DNA from: a virus
Strand: one strand, 5' to 3'
Virus record (IMG/VR): IMGVR_UViG_3300047384_000085
Span: 1-64,000 of that record
DNA: 64,000 nt
The notes beneath the pieces are model-generated. The model had not been told where the DNA came from and searched no databases. It saw nothing but the letters and a program-made list of their open reading frames with translations. The position numbers and the translations under genes are program-made. Below are positions 4,318-60,583 of the stretch, piece after piece (positions within the stretch are counted from its first letter, which is position 1; each line of letters begins with the position of its first letter).

Positions 4318-6040
4318 ACCAAAAGTAATTATTATACGTAATAAAGGAAGTCGTCTTTCCGAATCTCTTGCATTGAAAACAGCTAAAAGTTGGAATGACA
4401 GAGGTTATAAGACAGAACTCTTTGATGCTATAACACCTGACGATTTCGAAAAATACAGTTACCTAGATTTTGGTGATGGTATTCTAGCACATCCAACCAG
4501 CATAAGAAATCCCGAACACCCTTGGGGCCCGATGAGTACAGAATACACTAAAGGGACTGTCGGACTTAGACATATGAGTGGCGGAGAGAAAGCGGTTTAT
4601 TATTCACATCTAGAAGTTTTGAAATTAGTTGTAAAAAGAGACGAACCTCATTTCGTAGTAGAACATGACGGAATCCTTGAAGGTGATCCCGAATCTATAA
4701 AGTATGAAGACTACTTGTACGTTCAACTGAGTAATATGATATTGAGAGCTGGTTATTGGCATCCATTAATGGCTAAAGAGGTTCTTGATTTTATTGACGA
4801 TAAAGGATTGTGTATCAATCACCCATTACCTAAAGAGTGGTACACAAGAAACGATATCAAAGCATCTTCTCTATTGAACACTGACGGTTTTATTACGATG
4901 GTGTTATCATACCTTGCTAGATCAGATTTAACCCCAGACAGAAAATTATTAAGTAATATGAAACTTTGTAGTCCATGCATGGAAAACTTTTTAAATAAAA
5001 GACCGCACAGAAGAAACTTACTTAAAAACTTCACATCTTATGAGATGCTTGTTGGAGCTCATAATCTGCCTGGCATTATAGAACATAGAAACTATAAACC
5101 GATAACGAAGAGAACTGCCGTTATGGTTAGTGGCGCATATCATAGTTATCTTGATATTGATGATTTAAAACAAAGTGTGTGGTCAATTCTAACTATGTAC
5201 AAAGGTTGTGATATTTTCTGGCAGACTTGGGACACACCTGAACAAAGAAAGATTTTCAATAATCTTAGAAGAAACATGCCTATAAACGTTATCTTTGTCC
5301 CAGAACCAGAACCCTGTAAGTATGATCCCTACGGACTTTTGCTCGAAAGATTCCCAGACAGAAAAAGGTCAGACTGGATTCGTCTGGGTTTAAAGGGAAT
5401 ATCTGCTAAAATAATGAGATATAAAGATGGTCGTAGTAGAAAAGATCCACCTTTAACTGCTCTGAATCAACAGTTATCTTTTGATACTCAATGGAAAAAT
5501 GTACCTAAAGGTTATGATTTTTACGTTAGGACTAGATGGGATGTACACGCTAAAGGTGTCGCTGATTATCATGTTTTTCAAGAACTCTTGGAGTTGGCAG
5601 AAGATCGTGTGATTGGCATAGGACTCCAAGCGGGTAAGAAAGATCATTTCCAACTCCGTAACTGGAAGAACGATAAACGTGAACACGCAGAGTATAGAGC
5701 GATAAGAGACCTCAGAAAATCTGTTAAAGAACACTTAGAAAAGGGTATTTACTGTCTGTTAGACTCACCAGAATGTGACGAGGTGGGTATAGGAAAGGGA
5801 CAGAGATGGGAAAGTTTCTTAAATGATTTCGCAATAATCTTTAAAGAAAGTGACCTAGAAGGTGTCGATATTGAAAAACTAAATAATAAGTGCAAGTTGA
5901 TGCCAGTAGAGTATGGTTGGCATCAAATATTTTGTACAAAACGAAGTCACTACAATATTGATGGTGTTTTTGCTTTACGAAAGAACATTGATTTTAGACA
6001 TTCAACTTTTAAGAGACTAAAAAAGAATAAATTATTATGA
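4304..6040 (+). CDS. Two-domain putative glycosyltransferase
   Basis: This 578-residue protein looks like two transferase modules in one chain. The first ~245 residues resemble family GT25 (LPS biosynthesis transferases): a YYSHLEVLKL segment followed by FVVEHDGIL, the usual place of the acidic donor motif. Residues from about 268 (KRTAVMVSGAYHSYLDIDDL) form a second module with DIFWQTWD and a GYDFYVRTRWD motif. The stand-alone protein at 9489 has matching DVFTSTW and YDMCVRMRFD motifs. It overlaps the previous gene by 14 bases and the next by ATGA. The acceptor is unknown. Confidence 0.6.
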   Translation: MTTDKPKVIIIRNKGSRLSESLALKTAKSWNDRGYKTELFDAITPDDFEKYSYLDFGDGILAHPTSIRNPEHPWGPMSTEYTKGTVGLRHMSGGEKAVYYSHLEVLKLVVKRDEPHFVVEHDGILEGDPESIKYEDYLYVQLSNMILRAGYWHPLMAKEVLDFIDDKGLCINHPLPKEWYTRNDIKASSLLNTDGFITMVLSYLARSDLTPDRKLLSNMKLCSPCMENFLNKRPHRRNLLKNFTSYEMLVGAHNLPGIIEHRNYKPITKRTAVMVSGAYHSYLDIDDLKQSVWSILTMYKGCDIFWQTWDTPEQRKIFNNLRRNMPINVIFVPEPEPCKYDPYGLLLERFPDRKRSDWIRLGLKGISAKIMRYKDGRSRKDPPLTALNQQLSFDTQWKNVPKGYDFYVRTRWDVHAKGVADYHVFQELLELAEDRVIGIGLQAGKKDHFQLRNWKNDKREHAEYRAIRDLRKSVKEHLEKGIYCLLDSPECDEVGIGKGQRWESFLNDFAIIFKESDLEGVDIEKLNNKCKLMPVEYGWHQIFCTKRSHYNIDGVFALRKNIDFRHSTFKRLKKNKLL

Positions 6041-15071: not shown

Positions 15072-15215
15072 GTGAAAGATCTTTGGAATAAAGTACAAGA
15101 AAATATTATTGAGTTTATCAGATACACCGCAGACGATTTCGTTGCAGTTTGGGAGTTTAGACCAAACGTAATTATTTTATTAGTACTCTTTGCCTTGGGA
15201 TGTTTTTTTGTATAA
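15072..15215 (+). CDS. Small single-span membrane protein (47 aa)
   Basis: A GTG start one base after the previous stop opens a 47-codon frame. The first 28 residues form an amphipathic, charged segment and the last 17 (NVIILLVLFALGCFFV) a single transmembrane helix. The stop codon lies inside the late promoter of the next gene. The function is unknown; tail-anchored topology with the N-terminus in the cytoplasm is likely. Confidence 0.6.
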   Translation: MKDLWNKVQENIIEFIRYTADDFVAVWEFRPNVIILLVLFALGCFFV

Positions 15216-15218
15216 ATA
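15211..15218 (+). promoter_or_regulatory. T4-type late promoter (TATAAATA), close to start codon
   Basis: A perfect TATAAATA ends six bases before ATG 15225. T4 late transcripts start about six or seven bases after this box, so the message would begin at or beside the start codon and lack a normal ribosome site. Confidence 0.8.
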
Positions 15219-15224
15219 ACTTAT

Positions 15225-16103
15225 ATGAAAACATTTAGCCAGCACCTAACAGAAGAACAAGAACTCCAACAGTATAGTGAGATTCTATTAGAGAAACTCA
15301 TTACGTTCGGAGGTAAAGCATACCCTAAATTTGGTAACGTTGTTATCATGGCGGGGGGTGCTGGTTCTGGTAAAGGATTCGTCCTATCCAACCTAGTTGG
15401 ACTAGAAGGTAAAGTCTTAGACGTTGATGAACTCAAGACTGCCGCCGCAAAGTCACCGTTGATTCGTAAGAGAGTCAAGGCGGAGACTGGAATGGATATC
15501 GAAGCAATCGCATCTGATCTAAAGAATCCAGAGAACGTTGGCAAGTTACACGACATCATTGCGAACGTTCTACAACTGGACACTCGTCAGAAGAAAGTCT
15601 TGATGCGTGGTATCCTTGGTGCTGCTCCTGATCGTAAACCTAATCTTGTTTTCGATACAACTCTGAAAGATCTACAGAAGTTGGGTAACCTATCTCGTAT
15701 GTTGACTAACGTGGGTTACGAGAAAAGAAATATCCATATCGTATGGGTAGTGAACGACATCGAAGTTGCAAAGACACAGAACCTTACTCGTAGTCGTACC
15801 GTTCCCGCTGAGATTCTTGTTAACACACACCGTGGTGCATCACAGACTATGGCGGACATCGTTAACATGGGTAAGACATTGAAAACTTATATGGATGGGG
15901 ATATCGTATTCGCATTCAACAAGGTCGGTGTCGATGCTGATCTTAAAGTATCTGGTGGGGGTGGTTCATTCCTAAAAGATGCGAAATACTTCTACGCAAA
16001 AAGAGCAGGTAAACCACCTACTCCAGTTGCGAGTCTTGATAAGGATATCAAAGCGAAGATATCTAAGTATGTTCCTAAAGCAGTTACTTGGTCTGGTCGT
16101 TAG
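15225..16103 (+). CDS. Zeta-toxin-like P-loop kinase with capsid-targeting peptide
   Basis: The 292-residue protein has a P-loop at about residues 43-51 (MAGGAGSGKG), an acidic motif DVDELK near 68, a second Asp in VFDTTLKDL near 155, and an arginine-rich lid TRSRTVPAEILVNTH near 200. These are features of zeta-toxin-like kinases, some of which phosphorylate UDP-N-acetylglucosamine and block wall synthesis. Its first residues, MKTFSQHLTEE, closely resemble the T4 capsid-targeting sequence MKTYQEFIAE of Alt and the internal proteins, including an L-x-E site for the gp21 protease. It is driven by a late promoter. Packaging into the head and injection with DNA is inference. Confidence 0.7.
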   Translation: MKTFSQHLTEEQELQQYSEILLEKLITFGGKAYPKFGNVVIMAGGAGSGKGFVLSNLVGLEGKVLDVDELKTAAAKSPLIRKRVKAETGMDIEAIASDLKNPENVGKLHDIIANVLQLDTRQKKVLMRGILGAAPDRKPNLVFDTTLKDLQKLGNLSRMLTNVGYEKRNIHIVWVVNDIEVAKTQNLTRSRTVPAEILVNTHRGASQTMADIVNMGKTLKTYMDGDIVFAFNKVGVDADLKVSGGGGSFLKDAKYFYAKRAGKPPTPVASLDKDIKAKISKYVPKAVTWSGR

Positions 16104-16958
16104 TTATTTGTAGACACTAATGTGTCTGTTCAAGAATTTTTCTTCTGCTTTTAAATTAATCCCACCCGATTCTGATTTAAGATCCATCGCTTGCATTATA
16201 TCACCAACTGAAGATGACTCATTCGCACCTAAGAATCTACCAGATTTATCACCGTTCCAAAGGTCAACATATTCGCAATTATCCGTCACGTAATCACTAA
16301 ATGTATTTTTCACCTGATCTAAGGTGAAATCTTTGTCGTCTTTTGAAGGAACATGTAAAAATACAACAGCATCGTATCTAGGATATTCTTCTTTAACTGA
16401 ACGCCAAACCTTATTGCCATGTTCATATTGAGTATTAACATCAAGAGATTCTATATTAAATCTTTTATAAATTTCATGTATTGTTCCTGAATACCTAAGT
16501 TGGGAAGGTCTTGCTACGGTTGTTTCTGTATCGAAGTCCCAAGTACGAAGAATTGTTGGTATAAAATGTATAACCTTATCTAAATCGGGATAATTTTTAT
16601 CAACAATTTTTTCTGGAGGATAACCATCGATAAATATTTGGGGGTCTATATCTTCACGAGGACGGCCGTCAAGATACCATTTTCTTTCATTGATATCCAT
16701 ATGCGAAATAAATAAAATATTACTATATTTACGAGACATTAGAAAATTGCAGTACATAGGACAGAGATATAGTATCTCGTCCAATAAATTACAATCTTGA
16801 GACTCGTCTTTGAATGTTACATCATGTCCCATATTGGCACTTTGACGAATTATTCGGCCATTAAGTAATTTATAGGTGTGTTCTAATGCGCTTTCAATCA
16901 TAGACTCACTTCTGAATGAAGTTGTCATAGATCTTGTTATTATCTTTTCAATCCGCAT
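16104..16958 (-). CDS. Hypothetical protein of unknown function
   Basis: A 284-residue, AT-rich minus-strand gene that ends exactly where the convergent kinase gene stops. No membrane segment is visible. A cysteine pair lies in LYLCPMYC near residue 66 and HMDINERKWYLDGRP near 85; the strand-like YDAVVFLHVPSKDD near 195 could belong to an alpha/beta fold. I do not recognise a family. It lies three bases behind the small coiled-coil gene and is probably transcribed with it from late promoters. Confidence 0.6.
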   Translation of the reverse strand: MRIEKIITRSMTTSFRSESMIESALEHTYKLLNGRIIRQSANMGHDVTFKDESQDCNLLDEILYLCPMYCNFLMSRKYSNILFISHMDINERKWYLDGRPREDIDPQIFIDGYPPEKIVDKNYPDLDKVIHFIPTILRTWDFDTETTVARPSQLRYSGTIHEIYKRFNIESLDVNTQYEHGNKVWRSVKEEYPRYDAVVFLHVPSKDDKDFTLDQVKNTFSDYVTDNCEYVDLWNGDKSGRFLGANESSSVGDIMQAMDLKSESGGINLKAEEKFLNRHISVYK

Positions 16959-16961
16959 GGA

Positions 16962-17225
16962 TTACCCTTTGTAGATACCTTGGATATGTGTTTCAAATTG
17001 TTCAATCTTATCTGTGCGATTGGGCCACAGAATGTATTCTTTCTCTGGGTTTGCTTTGAGATTATTCAACAATGGTTGAATCGCATTGTACAACTTGTCT
17101 AGTTTTGCTTGGGTTTCTTCTACGGACGATGATGCAGACGTGACTGTTGCTTGCGCCTGTTGCACAACCTCCAGTTCGTTCTCATCTACTAGGGTAAACC
17201 CAAAATCGAATAGTTCGTTACTCAT
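16962..17225 (-). CDS. Conserved small coiled-coil protein of T4-like phages
   Basis: The 87-residue product begins with a hydrophobic FDFGFTLVDENEL segment, continues with a Gln/Ala/Ser/Glu-rich coiled coil (about residues 20-50), and ends with a conserved-looking YILWPNRTDKIEQFE stretch. I recall similar short proteins in marine T4-like phages, where they are of unknown function. Two minus-strand late promoters precede it, so it is probably a late, structural or assembly protein. The start codon lies only five bases from the nearer late promoter. Confidence 0.7.
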   Translation of the reverse strand: MSNELFDFGFTLVDENELEVVQQAQATVTSASSSVEETQAKLDKLYNAIQPLLNNLKANPEKEYILWPNRTDKIEQFETHIQGIYKG

Positions 17226-17230
17226 AGTGT

Positions 17231-17238
17231 TATTTATA
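17231..17238 (-). promoter_or_regulatory. T4-type late promoter, 5 bases from start codon
   Basis: Minus-strand TATAAATA ends five bases before the ATG at 17225. Transcription from it would start at about the first base of the start codon, giving a leaderless message. Confidence 0.75.
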
Positions 17239-17260
17239 CCTTTTATCTAATTTATCTCTT

Positions 17261-17268
17261 TATTTATA
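17261..17268 (-). promoter_or_regulatory. Second, distal T4-type late promoter
   Basis: A second minus-strand TATAAATA lies 30 bases upstream of the first. It would give the same gene a message with a leader of roughly 30 bases. It also lies just left of the opposite-facing sigma70 promoter at 17281. Confidence 0.65.
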
Positions 17269-20991: not shown

Positions 20992-21558
20992 ATGAAAAAG
21001 AAACGCAAACCAATGACCGAAGAACAGCGACTTGCAGCTGCGGAGCGTTTGCGAATCGCTCGTGAGAAAAGAGGACATGATGGATCTGCATCTGTTCATC
21101 CAGATTTGTTGGAGATGGACGATGACAGTCCTATCCATTGGAAGAAGGTTCGGGAGTGGGTAAAAGAACTCACCTCCGAAGTTAGTTCCAAGAAACGAAA
21201 TCGTTTATCGAAGGATAAGGACGAACGTCATGAATATCAGATCCTTGATGTCTATTTGAAAAACTTGAAGTCATACCTGTCTAGTGGGATATATCAAGAC
21301 AGTCGTTATGGACGTAATCGTGAGGGTAAAATGAAAACTATTTGTTTAACTATGGCATACTATCCAGACGGCACACCAAAACGATCTATCGGTACGTACT
21401 ACCCAGATATAGCACAGGTGTGGACTCAAGAACTGAGGAATGAATGGTATGGTAACAACGAACCAAGAAGAACCTACAAAAGAGAACTTCCTGAACAAGA
21501 AGAAGTTTTCGAAGATGGTGGAGACGGCAGTACGGACGAATGGAATGTCCTACCTTGA
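20992..21558 (+). CDS. Conserved hypothetical basic protein
   Basis: The 188-residue protein has a strongly charged helical start (EEQRLAAAERLRIAREKRGH), a central Trp/Lys-rich helix (HWKKVREWVKELTSEVSSKK), a conserved-looking strand region (KTICLTMAYYPDGTPKRSIG), and an acidic C-terminus. I recall homologues in marine T4-like phages without known role. Its place beside gp33 and gp32 suggests DNA metabolism or transcription. Its last ~110 bases are read in another frame by gp33. Confidence 0.6.
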   Translation: MKKKRKPMTEEQRLAAAERLRIAREKRGHDGSASVHPDLLEMDDDSPIHWKKVREWVKELTSEVSSKKRNRLSKDKDERHEYQILDVYLKNLKSYLSSGIYQDSRYGRNREGKMKTICLTMAYYPDGTPKRSIGTYYPDIAQVWTQELRNEWYGNNEPRRTYKRELPEQEEVFEDGGDGSTDEWNVLP

Positions 21559-21700
21559 TGCAATCGTTTGGTTGTGTGAACAAAACAATATAGAGATCGA
21601 AGATATCAAAAAATATCTCTCGCCTTCTATTACCGAGAATCTTGAGAAGGAAGCGATGGATCTTAACTTTTTGCCTAAGGTAAATACTTTGGATGTATAA
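21449..21700 (+). CDS. 33: gp33-like late transcription co-activator
   Basis: The C-terminal half matches T4 gp33 in order: KMVETAVRTNGMSYLDAI (T4 KMVEEFGMSYLEAT), then a helix CEQNNIEIEDIKKYLSP, IT-E-N-LEKEA, and the final NTLDV corresponding to T4 NTLDFLL. gp33 bridges the sliding clamp and RNA polymerase and, with sigma gp55 (not in this window), activates TATAAATA late promoters. The start is uncertain: ATG 21449 lies nine bases after GAGGA, 21440 is too close, and 21515 would give a short form. It overlaps the preceding gene by about 110 bases, a large overlap for this genome. Confidence 0.75.
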   Translation: MVTTNQEEPTKENFLNKKKFSKMVETAVRTNGMSYLDAIVWLCEQNNIEIEDIKKYLSPSITENLEKEAMDLNFLPKVNTLDV

Positions 21701-22315: not shown

Positions 22316-22323
22316 TATAAATA
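22316..22323 (+). promoter_or_regulatory. T4-type late promoter before gp32
   Basis: A perfect TATAAATA straddling the end of the oxygenase spacer, five bases before the -35 box of the sigma70 promoter, so gp32 can be transcribed in both periods. Confidence 0.7.
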
Positions 22324-25835: not shown

Positions 25836-26545
25836 AAAAAATCTGATATCCCTTTCATTTCACGTTCATTCTCAGTTTCACATTTTAAACACTTGAATTT
25901 CGCTGTGTGTTTCATTGATGGAAGGTCACCGATATACTTGGTCACTCTTTCAAACTGTTCACTAGTCATCGAATCGATGAAGTCTAGTAATTCTTTCTTG
26001 GATACATCCTTTGCATCTGTGCGTTCTTCTTCAAGTCCGTCTTTTACTATGATGGAGTCTATACTTGATGCCACCATTTCAAGACCTAACTTCATCTGAT
26101 CACCCTGTAAGTCAGAATCCATAATTGCCTTGTAAGGCGGATATTTCATCTCTACTGTAATCTGGTCAGTCAGATCAATAACTGTTTCTCTTTCCCCAAT
26201 TTCAACATTAATCTGTGATAGGTCAACAACATACTCATGTTGCGTACCACATTCCTTACACTTCAACAATACTGTCGATTTCTCACCAGCTGATTTGGAA
26301 CGTATCTGTGTAAACATATACTCGACATCAAATGTTGCCAAGTCATGTACATTAATGTTTTCTTGAACACATGCTTCGATAGTAGAGACAATTGCTTTTA
26401 ATGTTTGGTTCTGGTTACCAGACTCAAACGCCATCATCAATACCTTCTCTTCCTTTACAAGATACGGTCGGAAACTGACTCGTTGTCCTGTAGAAGGAAC
26501 CGATAATTCATATATCGGTGCTGTGTTTAACTTTGGTAATGCCAT
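25829..26545 (-). CDS. 26: gp26-like baseplate hub / tape-measure chaperone
   Basis: The 238-residue protein resembles T4 gp26: an N-terminal beta segment (RVSFRPYLVKEEKVLMMAFE), a central CxxC in LKCKECGTQHEYVVDL near residue 125, EMKYPPYKAIMD, and a second CxxC in KFKCLKCETENE near the end, so a zinc ribbon formed by the two pairs is likely. In T4 gp26 acts in hub assembly. Its last codons contain the slippery site for the gp51 frame. It lies 35 bases behind the gp54-like gene in the minus-strand operon. Confidence 0.75.
   Translation of the reverse strand: MALPKLNTAPIYELSVPSTGQRVSFRPYLVKEEKVLMMAFESGNQNQTLKAIVSTIEACVQENINVHDLATFDVEYMFTQIRSKSAGEKSTVLLKCKECGTQHEYVVDLSQINVEIGERETVIDLTDQITVEMKYPPYKAIMDSDLQGDQMKLGLEMVASSIDSIIVKDGLEEERTDAKDVSKKELLDFIDSMTSEQFERVTKYIGDLPSMKHTAKFKCLKCETENEREMKGISDFLS
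25835..25855 (-). promoter_or_regulatory. Programmed -1 frameshift site
   Basis: Minus strand: AAAGGGA (25855-25849), seven bases, then T TTT TTA (25841-25835) in the gp26 reading frame, with the gp26 stop one codon later. The heptamer fits X XXY YYZ exactly, and the Shine-Dalgarno-like AGGG placed upstream resembles the stimulator of E. coli dnaX. A 7-bp hairpin (25794-25811) lies 23 bases downstream, probably too far to act. Confidence 0.7.
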
Positions 26546-26579
26546 TTCATTTCTCCTAATAATTTAGAAATAGTTTAAA

Positions 26580-27284
26580 TCAAAATATACTTAGACCACC
26601 GCTAAGTATGTTATCAAACAGACTCTTCGCATCTGCGGATTCTGCTTCCCAATCTTTGAACTTGAAAGATATTGTAATTTCCATAGTTGCATCGGTTTGG
26701 TCGTCACCCAACTGTATGTCACTCATTGTAGTTGGAATTGCATCGATCAGTCTACACTTGTGTGACCAATCATCTTTAGTACCTATATCCATATCAATCT
26801 CACCTTGGGACAGTTTAAATGGCCCAATGTCTGGCAAACGATTACGGATAGTCGGGTTTATTTTATTCAAGAAAGGTATGTCTCGTTGAAACAACGGAAT
26901 TGTCGCACCCTTCTTCATTGTCTCTATTTTTATATCTCGTGCATAGTCTTTGTAATATCCAACCGAACCTTTATTGAACATGACTTTTTGCCAGTCCATA
27001 AAGTAATTCTTTATGAGGTGCGAAGATGTTACATGAAAAGTCATAGTTACTTCTGATACACTCATTTGGTTTACGATGTCATACTTATACATTCCAACCT
27101 GTTTTTCAAGTGTACCCAACTGACGGCCAGGCATCAACACTGCCTTACACAAAAGATTTAAATCTTTGGTCTCATACCCCTTTATCGGAGGTAATGTTAC
27201 ACGGAAAAGGTTCGGTCTCTGGAAATTTTCATTCTTTCCTATAAGACCTTTCAGTTCTTCGATGTCGCCTATTCTGTTACCCAT
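26580..27284 (-). CDS. 54: gp54-like baseplate tail-tube initiator
   Basis: The 234-residue protein has features of the tail-tube fold family (gp19/gp48/gp54): NLFRVTLPPIKGYETKDLNL followed by LCKAVLMPGRQLGTLEK near residues 45-60, a YDIVNQMSVSEVTMTFHVT strand region, and a C-terminal MEITISFKFKDWE strand. In T4, gp54 and gp48 cap the hub and start tube polymerisation. The choice of gp54 over tube protein gp19 rests on its position with gp26, gp51 and the tape measure. It overlaps the preceding gene by eight bases. Confidence 0.65.
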   Translation of the reverse strand: MGNRIGDIEELKGLIGKNENFQRPNLFRVTLPPIKGYETKDLNLLCKAVLMPGRQLGTLEKQVGMYKYDIVNQMSVSEVTMTFHVTSSHLIKNYFMDWQKVMFNKGSVGYYKDYARDIKIETMKKGATIPLFQRDIPFLNKINPTIRNRLPDIGPFKLSQGEIDMDIGTKDDWSHKCRLIDAIPTTMSDIQLGDDQTDATMEITISFKFKDWEAESADAKSLFDNILSGGLSIF

Positions 27285-27882
27285 CTATCTTTTGCCTTGA
27301 ATCGTAGAATACTTTCTGAGAGTTTGCCTTACGGAACTGTGCAGTCGGTAAGAATGTTGCAATCTCCCACTCTGGTGTTTGAACCTCCGCTAACCGACTT
27401 TTAACATGTGCGGTCAGATAGTGTTTCAAACACGGTTTATAGTACCGCATCTTTGCGGTCTTCTTTAACATCTTATACGTCAACGCCATCCTTGCGGACT
27501 TTGTCATCTTCGCACCGAGTACATCCATCAATGCATCCAGAAACTTCGCACGAAGAATCGGAGGCAAGTAATGTAAGTTTAGACCGTAGAACCCACCTTC
27601 TGCTGGGCCAACAATAATGACCAACGGAAACGCATCGTAGTATGGTAATGTCTTCTTATGTTTTGGATCATAGAAAAACATCTGCATAGTACCGATTAAT
27701 CCTGAGTCGTCAGCCTTTGCTGCAGCACGTCTCTTCAACGGATCTTCGTTCATTAACTGTTCACGATTAATTGAACGTAAGTTAGACGATTTCTTTCTAA
27801 ACCATTCACGACTTTCTTTGGTACGAGGTGTTACGCCCGCACGGAATGCCTGTAGTTCTAACCTGTTGAATAAATTACTCAT
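27277..27882 (-). CDS. Conserved virion assembly protein next to gp4
   Basis: The 201-residue basic protein carries TPRTKESREWFRKKSSNLRS, MQMFFYDPKHKKTLPYYDAF and a segment reading VGPAEGGFYGLNLHYLPP, a set I recall from marine T4-like phages beside gp4. In T4 the neighbours of gene 4 include the DNA end protector gp2, but I cannot claim that identity. Its richness in Lys/Arg fits contact with DNA or a head-tail joint. A late promoter lies five bases before its start codon, in addition to read-through from gp4. Confidence 0.6.
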   Translation of the reverse strand: MSNLFNRLELQAFRAGVTPRTKESREWFRKKSSNLRSINREQLMNEDPLKRRAAAKADDSGLIGTMQMFFYDPKHKKTLPYYDAFPLVIIVGPAEGGFYGLNLHYLPPILRAKFLDALMDVLGAKMTKSARMALTYKMLKKTAKMRYYKPCLKHYLTAHVKSRLAEVQTPEWEIATFLPTAQFRKANSQKVFYDSRQKIDG

Positions 27883-27887
27883 ACGTC

Positions 27888-27895
27888 TATTTATA
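27888..27895 (-). promoter_or_regulatory. T4-type late promoter, 5 bases from start codon
   Basis: Minus-strand TATAAATA lies in the gap between gp4 and the next gene and ends five bases before its ATG at 27882, again predicting a leaderless transcript. Confidence 0.75.
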
Positions 27896-28393: not shown

Positions 28394-28401
28394 TATAAAT
28401 A
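28394..28401 (+). promoter_or_regulatory. T4-type late promoter for baseplate operon
   Basis: TATAAATA on the + strand, 40 bases before the gp48-like ATG at 28442. It should drive the long + strand structural operon. Confidence 0.8.
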
Positions 28402-28441: not shown

Positions 28442-29467
28442 ATGCCAGCAAAAAACCTGTATCAATACCCCCTTCACGATGAAGGTGACTATAAAGGTAG
28501 AATTAGATTTACTCTTTTCGCTGAGTCCTATCTCAATACTGGACTTTCGGATGTTTTGAATGAGAAAAAGTCTAATATAAAAGATCTCAATGAGAAACGT
28601 GAATCCTTACTTAAACAATCATCAGACGAAGAAGAATCGGGTGTGGTTAAAGATACCACCAGATCTATTCTAGATAGAACTGAACTAGAATTACAAGAAT
28701 TGACCGCAGATTTAAAGGCGTTCGATGGGAACACTAACAATGTAGAAGTGGGTTCGAAACCCAGACAACTTATTGATACTGAAGTGTTGTTATATCTTCC
28801 ACAGGGTTTACAGTTTAGGGATAATGTAACGTATGAGAATGTTGATGTAGGTGCGACAGGAGCTGCGGTATCTCAAGGTGCATCCATACTAGGTTCTATG
28901 GCAGATGGTGTAGGGTCATTTGTACAGGGAATGGCAGGCGGTGCCTCGGACGGTCTCGCAAAACTAGCGACTGTAAAGATGGCAGCAGCTGCAGGCAAGT
29001 TTAGTGATGAGGTTACGGCAGGTCTTAAACTACAAACTGGTGTTACTACCAATCCTAATTCACGTTCGTTGTTTAAACAAGTTAACATGCGTGAGTTCCA
29101 GTTCAACTTCAAGATGATTGCTCGATCTAAAAAAGAGGCTGATCAGATCAAAAAGATTGTTAAATTTTTCAGGTCAGAATTATATCCAGAAGACATTGAA
29201 GTGACAATTGGTGGTCAAGAATTATCTATTGGTTATCAGTTTCCAAACAAATTTAATATCGAATTTGAATACGAAGATAAGATGATTGCACATAAAGTGA
29301 AACCTTGTTTCTTACGTTCAGTCGATACCACATACAACGCAAGTCAGATGGCATTCCACGATGACGGCGAGTTCTTAGAAGTAGACATGAACCTTAACTT
29401 TACTGAAACCGTGACACTGTCCAAGAAAGATGTTCTTGAAACAGATGCGGATGGAGTTGGATTCTAA
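28442..29467 (+). CDS. 48: gp48-like baseplate tail-tube cap
   Basis: The 341-residue protein resembles T4 gp48 (364 aa). After a charged helix near residues 38-75, an Ala/Gly-rich hydrophobic middle (about 135-195) leads to LFKQVNMREFQFNFKMIARS. A C-terminal tube-like domain ends MNLNFTETVTLSKKDVLE, parallel to the T4 ending with its TLEITMREIITL strand. gp48 sits on the hub and is the platform for the first tube ring. It is the first gene of the + baseplate operon and ends overlapping gp53 by one base. Confidence 0.7.
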   Translation: MPAKNLYQYPLHDEGDYKGRIRFTLFAESYLNTGLSDVLNEKKSNIKDLNEKRESLLKQSSDEEESGVVKDTTRSILDRTELELQELTADLKAFDGNTNNVEVGSKPRQLIDTEVLLYLPQGLQFRDNVTYENVDVGATGAAVSQGASILGSMADGVGSFVQGMAGGASDGLAKLATVKMAAAAGKFSDEVTAGLKLQTGVTTNPNSRSLFKQVNMREFQFNFKMIARSKKEADQIKKIVKFFRSELYPEDIEVTIGGQELSIGYQFPNKFNIEFEYEDKMIAHKVKPCFLRSVDTTYNASQMAFHDDGEFLEVDMNLNFTETVTLSKKDVLETDADGVGF

Positions 29468-36747: not shown

Positions 36748-36755
36748 TATAAATA
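36748..36755 (+). promoter_or_regulatory. T4-type late promoter before gp25
   Basis: TATAAATA with an expected leader of about 22 bases containing AAGAGA before ATG 36783. Confidence 0.85.
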
Positions 36756-36782: not shown

Positions 36783-37241
36783 ATGGCAACATTAAAAGCA
36801 TTATCGATAGAGGACGCTAACCTATCGAATCTTGTTACGTTGAAAACTACCCAGAACAAAGAATATTCTGATCTGGATATTTCTCTTGCGTTGACAACAT
36901 CGACAAAAGATGTTTTTAAAAAGACTAACGTAGAAGCGGTTAAGTTTGCGGTGAAGAATCTCTTGTTAACAAATCAAGGCGAAAAACCATTCAATCCATA
37001 TTTTGGCGGAAACCTTTATGATTTCTTATTTGAATTGGCTGACGAACATACAGAAAGAAGTATGATTCGTGAGATTAAAAATGTTATAGAAGTTTACGAA
37101 CCACGTGTTGATATTTCTACCTTAGATGTACGTATTAACATGGCACCAGATCAGAACTCAGCAGAATTAACGATTGTCTTTAAGATAATCAATACTGGAG
37201 AGTTAGCAGAATTCACTACCGTATTAAGTAGGTTAAGATAA
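36783..37241 (+). CDS. 25: gp25-like baseplate wedge protein
   Basis: The 152-residue protein is of the gp25/GpW-lysozyme-like family shared by contractile tails: AVKFAVKNLLLTNQGEKPFN with the conserved L-L-x-T-x-x-G-E-x-P, GGNLYDFLFELADEH, and a C-terminal ELTIVFKIINTGE. In T4, gp25 nucleates sheath assembly at the wedge. It is followed directly by gp6. Length is slightly above T4 gp25 (132 aa). Confidence 0.95.
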   Translation: MATLKALSIEDANLSNLVTLKTTQNKEYSDLDISLALTTSTKDVFKKTNVEAVKFAVKNLLLTNQGEKPFNPYFGGNLYDFLFELADEHTERSMIREIKNVIEVYEPRVDISTLDVRINMAPDQNSAELTIVFKIINTGELAEFTTVLSRLR

Positions 37242-40187: not shown

Positions 40188-40195
40188 TATAAATA
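40188..40195 (+). promoter_or_regulatory. T4-type late promoter
   Basis: TATAAATA in the 54-base gap before the fibre-like gene at 40226. The leader has TAGGTAAAGG. Confidence 0.85.
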
Positions 40196-40225: not shown

Positions 40226-41242
40226 ATGACAAAACAAGTATTAAATAGAGGCACAATTGCAAACGATGGTACAGGAGATACTCTCCGTACTGCTGGTTTG
40301 AAGATCAATGCCAACTTCGATGAGTTATATCAATTTCTTGGTGGGAAGACTGACGGAACACTTTCCACACAGATAGGAATAGAAAATGATGCGGTTGTTT
40401 TTGAAGGAACTTCATCTGATGATTTTGAAGTTAGATTGAAGGCTGCGAACGCAACGGCGGATCGTATTCTTACTCTTCCAAATGCGGATGGTGAATTTGT
40501 ACTTACGGTTGCGACCCAGACATTGACCAATAAGACAATTACCAACCCGACCGTTTCCGATCTAGTAATTACTGACGGTGGTTCTAACCACGAATATTCT
40601 CTAATTGCGTCTGACATAGCTGCGGATAGAAACATAAACTTGCCGGCATTATTAGATAGTGATGAACTTACGTTTAATGACCACACACAGACATTAACAA
40701 ATAAAACTTTAACCTCTCCAACAATTTCTTCACCGAGAGTTAAAGAGGCTATTAGAGATTCTAGTAGTAACGAATTAATTGATTTCTCACCCACAACTAG
40801 TGCAGTCAATCATATACAGGTTGTCAACAACGTTGATGGTTTAAACCCTAGAATCTCTGCGGTGGGTGATAATACCAATATCAACTTAGAGTTATATGGT
40901 AAAGGTACTGGTTCGGTTGCGGTAGAATCTAAACTGACATTAAAAACAGAAGGTATCACCACTAGTGGCGTTACTGTTAGTCTTAATGCACCAATATCAT
41001 ATTTCAATAAAGCTTCAGGTACTAACACTGCCACTTTACCGAATGGTGTAGAAGATGGTGAAGTCAAATATTTAATAAACATAAACCAAACTGGTAGTTA
41101 TACAATTGCTATTACTGGTAACCCATCTGGTGTACAGTCAGTAGTATTACCTCCGAACAAGTCGGTTCAACTGATTTGGGCATCTGTGGGCGGAACACAA
41201 AATTGGTACGTAATTTCAAATAACGGCGCAACGATTTCATAG
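40226..41242 (+). CDS. Fibre- or whisker-like tail protein
   Basis: The 338-residue protein begins with VLNRGTIANDGTGDTLRTAG and LKINANFDELY, an attachment module common at the N-terminus of marine phage tail proteins. It has two copies of the fibre motif TQTLTNKT (about residues 91-95 and 153-157), and ends with a small beta domain (GSYTIAITGNPSGVQSVVLP then NKSVQLIW). These suit a trimeric fibre or short spike attached to the baseplate. The exact T4 counterpart is not clear. Confidence 0.65.
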   Translation: MTKQVLNRGTIANDGTGDTLRTAGLKINANFDELYQFLGGKTDGTLSTQIGIENDAVVFEGTSSDDFEVRLKAANATADRILTLPNADGEFVLTVATQTLTNKTITNPTVSDLVITDGGSNHEYSLIASDIAADRNINLPALLDSDELTFNDHTQTLTNKTLTSPTISSPRVKEAIRDSSSNELIDFSPTTSAVNHIQVVNNVDGLNPRISAVGDNTNINLELYGKGTGSVAVESKLTLKTEGITTSGVTVSLNAPISYFNKASGTNTATLPNGVEDGEVKYLININQTGSYTIAITGNPSGVQSVVLPPNKSVQLIWASVGGTQNWYVISNNGATIS

Positions 41243-60186: not shown

Positions 60187-60194
60187 TATAAATA
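60187..60194 (+). promoter_or_regulatory. T4-type late promoter
   Basis: TATAAATA in the 53-base gap before ATG 60227. Confidence 0.8.
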
Positions 60195-60226: not shown

Positions 60227-60583
60227 ATGGCAGATTACGAAGATTTTTCAATCGATCAAGGTGCAGATGTTGCAATAGAATTACATCTCAAGGATCCTGA
60301 TGGTTCAGTAAAAGACCTTACAGGTTTTTCAGTTATAGCTATGATGAAGAGAACATATAACTCAGGTGCAGAAGACACAATTGAGTTTGCATGTTCTATA
60401 GAAGAACCTGCTTCTGATGGTGTAGTCATTTTGGGTTTGACTAATCAACAAACAGACAGTCTAAATACTACTGGTAGGTACGTTTATGATGTTGAATTAC
60501 ACTTTATTGATGGAGAAGAAAATACTATTATCGAACGTATCTTAGAAGGTAAAATAAAAGTCAATCCATCGGTAACTAGGTAG
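60227..60583 (+). CDS. Conserved small structural protein
   Basis: The 118-residue beta-rich protein begins ADYEDFSIDQGADVAIELHL and continues LKDPDGSVKDLTGFSVIAMM, ending RYVYDVELHFIDGEENTIIE with a RILEG strand. I recall such proteins as widespread in marine T4-like phages close to neck and fibre genes, and they resemble baseplate adaptor domains. It follows a late promoter. The specific role is unknown. Confidence 0.65.
   Translation: MADYEDFSIDQGADVAIELHLKDPDGSVKDLTGFSVIAMMKRTYNSGAEDTIEFACSIEEPASDGVVILGLTNQQTDSLNTTGRYVYDVELHFIDGEENTIIERILEGKIKVNPSVTR

Follow-up and report, generated by a model that had tools for sequence, protein, structure and literature searches.

T4-type late promoter boxes set against start codons in a T4-like phage and its relatives, with a predicted output of leaderless mRNAs

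T4 late transcription is a textbook system, leaderless translation in phages is usually regarded as a curiosity, and both leaderless mRNAs and T4 late promoters are already known. The classical leaderless phage mRNAs, lambda cI among them, are messages of phage genes that begin at AUG, but they come from single genes under host sigma-70 promoters and do not represent a late-gene set. In its excerpted text PMC5312081 describes phage transcripts as often leaderless; as a concept, leaderless mRNA in phages is therefore not new. For T4, the late box is placed at -13 to -6 (PMC1524935, in excerpt), which makes the sixth base past the box +1, and the gene e late transcript starts upstream of its ribosome-binding site (PMC3014915, likewise in excerpt). 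The T4-like phage described here resembles this gp55/gp33/gp45-dependent system in carrying the same octamer before virion genes, in encoding a gp33 homologue and in having an A at the expected +1 when promoters are leadered, but its phage group differs in a subset of promoters that have no room for a leader.

Among cellular systems, the portions of the reports at hand give 375 leaderless mRNAs in Caulobacter, translated as efficiently as leadered ones (PMC4117421), and 171 leaderless transcripts in S. meliloti, all with AUG (PMC3616915). The sites considered here share with these alphaproteobacterial mRNAs a predicted AUG 5' end, the use of AUG only and the lack of a Shine–Dalgarno (SD) site; unlike them, they are predicted to be transcribed with a late sigma factor of the phage, stand before conserved virion genes and alternate, from phage to phage, with versions of these genes that have an SD. 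We infer the link to Alphaproteobacteria from the hosts of phages HTVC008M and RHph_I1_18. In phiKZ the late promoter is TATG, with the last base as +1 (PMC4666361, in excerpt), which is likewise a late phage promoter motif directly against the transcription start, but polymerase and motif are different and the excerpted text of that paper does not contain the word leaderless. Our literature search, with most subscription journals outside its scope, did not turn up any account of T4-type late transcripts that are leaderless.

The window analysed is a stretch of 64,000 nucleotides from a 64,666-base IMG/VR record of a T4-like phage. Megablast of positions 15000-39000 against annotated phages gave no match, and annotation was therefore drawn from C48C1 and HTVC008M. 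The gp2 protein of the window shares 67% identity with gp2 of phage C48C1 (Kyanoviridae) and 45% with gp2 of Sinorhizobium phages phiM7 and phiM12. A gp33-like late-transcription co-activator is encoded at 21476-21697 (+); it is 61% identical (E 6.4e-27) to a C48C1 protein that carries the annotation late promoter transcriptional regulator. The gene for gp55 is not on this 64.7-kb fragment and is present in 7 of 11 searched records, counting C48C1, the query's own record.

Twelve perfect copies of TATAAATA occur in the window, against a mean of 4.99 in dinucleotide shuffles, one of which in 100 reached 12. Eight of the copies have a gene start at most 45 nt downstream, at gaps of 5, 5, 6, 27, 30, 32, 35 and 40 nt, and the octamer stands before gp2, baseplate and uncharacterised genes. 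Leadered boxes on the plus strand precede the baseplate tail tube cap gene (box 28394-28401, gap 40, gene 28442-29467), a gp25-like baseplate wedge gene that is predicted to be leaderless in relatives (36748-36755, gap 27, gene 36783-37241) and ORFs at 40226-41242 (40188-40195, gap 30) and 60227-60583 (60187-60194, gap 32). A further copy at 22316-22323 (+) has no start at a usable distance and is followed directly by TTGACA ... TATAAT, overlapping a sigma-70-type promoter ahead of the single-strand DNA-binding protein gene (22422).

The three shortest gaps are those that the original prediction had singled out as perfect boxes 5-6 nt before an ATG, and this description is exact. On the plus strand, the box at 15211-15218 is separated by the spacer ACTTAT (6 nt) from the ATG at 15225 of a gene for a 292-aa protein with a P-loop/zeta-toxin-like kinase domain (15225-16103; phrog_5268; PF06414), predicted to be leaderless or to have a 1-nt leader. 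On the minus strand, a proximal box (17231-17238, spacer ACACT, 5 nt) precedes the ATG at 17225 of a gene for an 87-aa protein without a family (16962-17225), which heads a leftward pair with the next gene at 16104-16958; a distal box at 17261-17268 (-), 35 nt from the same ATG, would yield an mRNA with a leader. The third box (27888-27895, -, spacer GACGT, 5 nt) lies one base past the upstream stop codon and before the ATG at 27882 of the gene for gp2, the DNA end protector (27277-27882; 201 aa; phrog_429), predicted to be leaderless. The pattern TATAAATAN{3,8}ATG matches the contig at exactly these three places (15225, 17225, 27882), and boxes with one mismatch added no leaderless gene in the window. 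Read directly, box and spacer contain no SD at any of the three genes, as had been claimed. The start codons correspond to conserved N-termini of the proteins, which makes a true start further downstream, one of the outcomes that would have undone the proposal, unlikely.

The position of +1 can be assessed at leadered promoters of the same type. An A occupies the sixth base past the box in 87 of 117 thinned leadered sites, compared with 35 of 73 boxes without a gene (p 3e-4), and the fifth and seventh bases show no difference between leadered sites and gene-less boxes. At a 5-nt gap the sixth base is the A of the ATG. The predicted +1 is accordingly placed by sequence on the A of the ATG at both 5-nt genes, and on that A or the base before it at the 6-nt gene.

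We consider it very probable that the three sites are gp55-dependent T4-type late promoters that make leaderless mRNAs, with ribosomes binding the 5'-terminal AUG. The host's RNA polymerase, together with gp55 and gp33 of the phage, would read the three boxes, and transcription would begin 5 (or 5-6) nt past the box, on the A of the start codon or the preceding base; an mRNA starting there would begin with AUG and have no SD site. Ribosomes, probably as 70S particles, would then bind the 5'-terminal AUG directly. We infer the start site of each gene, translation from the 5' AUG and 70S initiation in this scheme. Genes using the leaderless mode would be a minority in the phage group, with gp2, gp25 and the 87-aa gene among them; other late genes would retain a leader, about 15-35 nt long and usually containing an SD.

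Among relatives the spacing is under selection, and over orthologues of these genes its distribution is bimodal. In six orthologue sets with 190 unique upstreams, the box lies at a gap of 5-6 nt in 89, 7-9 nt in 11, 10-15 nt in 2 and at least 16 nt in 67, with 21 lacking a box and none at 0-4 nt. The two main forms are a 5-6 nt gap, always with ATG and without SD in box or spacer, and a gap of at least 16 nt, where an SD is usual. The start codon is ATG in 89 of 89 unique upstreams of the first form, and GTG or TTG in 14 of 67 of the second (Fisher 3e-6). A script flagged an SD-like motif in 13 of the 89 upstreams at gap 5-6; those that were read are located at the box's first base or further upstream, outside the predicted transcript.

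Among 78 gp2 loci listed, 67 combine gap 5 with ATG and 10 have the box 25-30 nt away with an SD-like site and GTG. In the remaining locus, L054, a new ORF is inserted between box and gene. This 131-aa ORF (4596-5003), HNH-like by eye, lies exactly between the late box and gp2, has its own ATG 5 nt past the box and overlaps the gp2 ATG with its stop (ATGA), as if the leaderless start had apparently been taken over from gp2. Across gp2 loci the spacer length is constant while its bases vary, and subgroups even have different genes upstream; a tree of 60 gp2 proteins requires at least two changes between the forms, with gaps of 5-9 pooled as leaderless. Both gp2 and gp25 were found in leaderless-type and leadered form in different phages. 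Gap 5 occurs in 19 of 27 unique upstreams in one gp25 set, and in a second set gaps of 5-6 and 7-9 nt account for 22 and 10 of 32. These 10 unique upstreams, together with 6 further loci at gap 8, are from pelagiphage-like contigs, and gaps of 7-9 nt predict a leader of about 2-4 nt, so that exact leaderlessness is not universal. The gp25 loci with such gaps are L443-L456, L458, L460, L462, L464-L467, L469, L470 and L472.

The kinase-like gene has gap 6 in 10 of 80 orthologous loci (L084-L093), the others being leadered or boxless. For the 87-aa gene, 34 unique upstreams divide into 14 at gap 5, 12 at 16 nt or more and 8 without a box; a tandem pair occurs in 10 close relatives, and several relatives have the proximal box alone. 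Tandem boxes like those of the window (17225-17268, -) were noted at L185-L187, L190 and L192-L195. In some relatives of this gene the proximal box is shortened to TATAAATATG and an AGG stands 7 nt before the ATG, as if the box had been turned into an SD.

The strongest rival accepts the boxes as real late promoters but has translation proceed mainly from longer transcripts started upstream, by read-through or from the distal box at 17261, through SD-independent or coupled initiation. The distal box of the 17225 gene, 35 nt before it, could indeed yield a leadered RNA, which counts against leaderless expression there; the head-closure gene precedes gp2 by only 14 nt, and initiation without an SD exists in many bacteria. 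On longer transcripts, however, the 5-nt spacing would be unneeded, yet it is kept where the upstream gene differs. Several relatives of the 17225 gene dispense with the distal box, the gene in the window has no same-strand gene immediately upstream, and leadered orthologues usually have an SD. We therefore regard this account as improbable.

That TATAAATA-N5-ATG serves here as an RNA-level translation enhancer, either by binding protein S1 at an A/U-rich site or as a Kozak-like context, and not as a promoter, is a still weaker proposal and in our view very improbable. In its favour, the box is rich in A and U and its distance from the start is that of a ribosome-binding site, but the same octamer precedes leadered genes that have their own SD, and there the +1 signature appears at the sixth base. 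The gap-6 class and the class at 16 nt or more use one and the same box, and gp25 and the kinase-like gene change from one class to the other while the box stays as it is.

Promoter-driven leaderless expression also accounts better than coincidence for the spacing statistics, in which all plausible starts were scored in six whole or partial records (the window, three related contigs, C48C1 and HTVC008M). Downstream of 124 perfect boxes, 17 starts lie at gap 5 and 2 at gap 6, compared with a mean of 1.39 and a maximum of 4 at the other gaps from 0 to 45, in agreement with the earlier claim that the arrangement is not chance. The Poisson value for the gap-5 peak (2e-13) overstates the case, since related contigs share orthologues; by our reading the gap-5 starts comprise about ten distinct gene families. 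With the relaxed box ATAAATA, seven phages of the group gave 27 matches at gap 5 versus 3 at gap 9, and 13 other T4-like phages gave 17 versus 12 (Fisher 0.007 between groups); contig G008, with 7 at gap 5 and 6 at gap 9, was excluded from both sides, and its inclusion would weaken the contrast.

We also scanned the whole collection of viral contigs for TATAAATA-N5-ATGAGTA with an N9 control. Among the matches listed, 43 of 81 at gap 5 were gene starts, not above the 48 of 80 at gap 9, and these equal shares led us to reject a general excess of box-N5-ATG gene starts across all viruses. With gp2, gp25, the 87-aa protein and the kinase-like protein as references, 30 of 70 proteins at gap 5 belonged to the gp2, gp25 or 87-aa families among the matches listed, versus 2 of 55 at gap 9, so that the pattern belongs to certain T4-like genes and not to viruses at large. 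Some of the gp2 lineages and spacers among the listed gap-5 matches were new. Chance in an A+T-rich genome, to which the TATAAATA-N5-ATG occurrences in unrelated phages, the 17 versus 12 in other T4-like phages and the lack of a gene-start excess among the listed matches lend something, is hardly credible against the 27 versus 3 within the group, the family contrast in the listed matches and the orthologue conservation that already refuted it. The leaderless interpretation of the original prediction is thus supported at the sequence level.

Independent annotation points to the same starts. In HTVC008M, a cultivated phage of Candidatus Pelagibacter ubique, each of the nine ATAAATA-N5-ATG sites had been annotated independently as a CDS start (6280, 7562, 16007, 18916 (gp2), 19456, 31132 (baseplate wedge), 49760, 75559 and 142360), with a crude chance value of 8e-14, and the single such site in C48C1 is also an annotated start (104644). 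Other T4-like phages of Alphaproteobacteria give a mixed picture. In Rhizobium phage RHph_I1_18 three of five sites, all five counted within the 17 gap-5 matches of the 13 other T4-like phages, are annotated starts, one of them of a baseplate wedge protein; none of three is in Ochrobactrum phage OC, and phiM12 and Cr30 have no ATAAATA-N5-ATG site. T4 has two such sites, and at the one looked up (131167) no gene starts. In RHph_I1_18 a putative homing endonuclease gene (85354) starts 5 nt past an ATAAATA box.

Short spacing is also seen at sigma-70-type promoters (TTGACA, 16-18 nt, TATAAT-like). In the six records, 12 starts have such a promoter 5-8 nt before the ATG, and a control with reversed -35 gave none; leadered starts lie at about 22-37 nt, and 14 starts fall at 9-13 nt, a single contig supplying five of these, all at gap 13. 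The 12 are C48C1 30980, 33486, 34380 and 92739; G003 6669, 17629, 66260 and 148009; G001 36597 and 46887; and HTVC008M 76476 and 89878. The DNA polymerase (30980) and primase (34380) of C48C1 are in this group at annotated starts, and from promoter position its members are likely to be leaderless early or middle genes. In the window itself, no sigma-70 promoter lies close enough to a start for a leaderless transcript. Genes for ribosomal protein bS21 are found at HTVC008M 91237-91392, G003 26416-26571 and G004 25890-26045. A broader proposal, that leaderless initiation is a programmed second expression class served by sigma-70-type and gp55 promoters, through which a subset of proteins would be set or switched on apart from SD-led ones, perhaps aided by changed ribosomes, for example with phage bS21, is speculative and in our view unlikely. 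If the sigma-70 pattern holds, leaderlessness would characterise the phage group and extend beyond its late promoters.

Late promoter and leaderless start thus seem to be fused at conserved virion genes of marine phages, including a cultivated SAR11 phage. An earlier study did not find late promoters in pelagimyophages, according to its excerpted text (PMC7029224), and a possible reason is that some of them touch the gene. Pairs of leaderless and SD-led orthologues would represent natural experiments on how one mode of translation initiation replaces the other.
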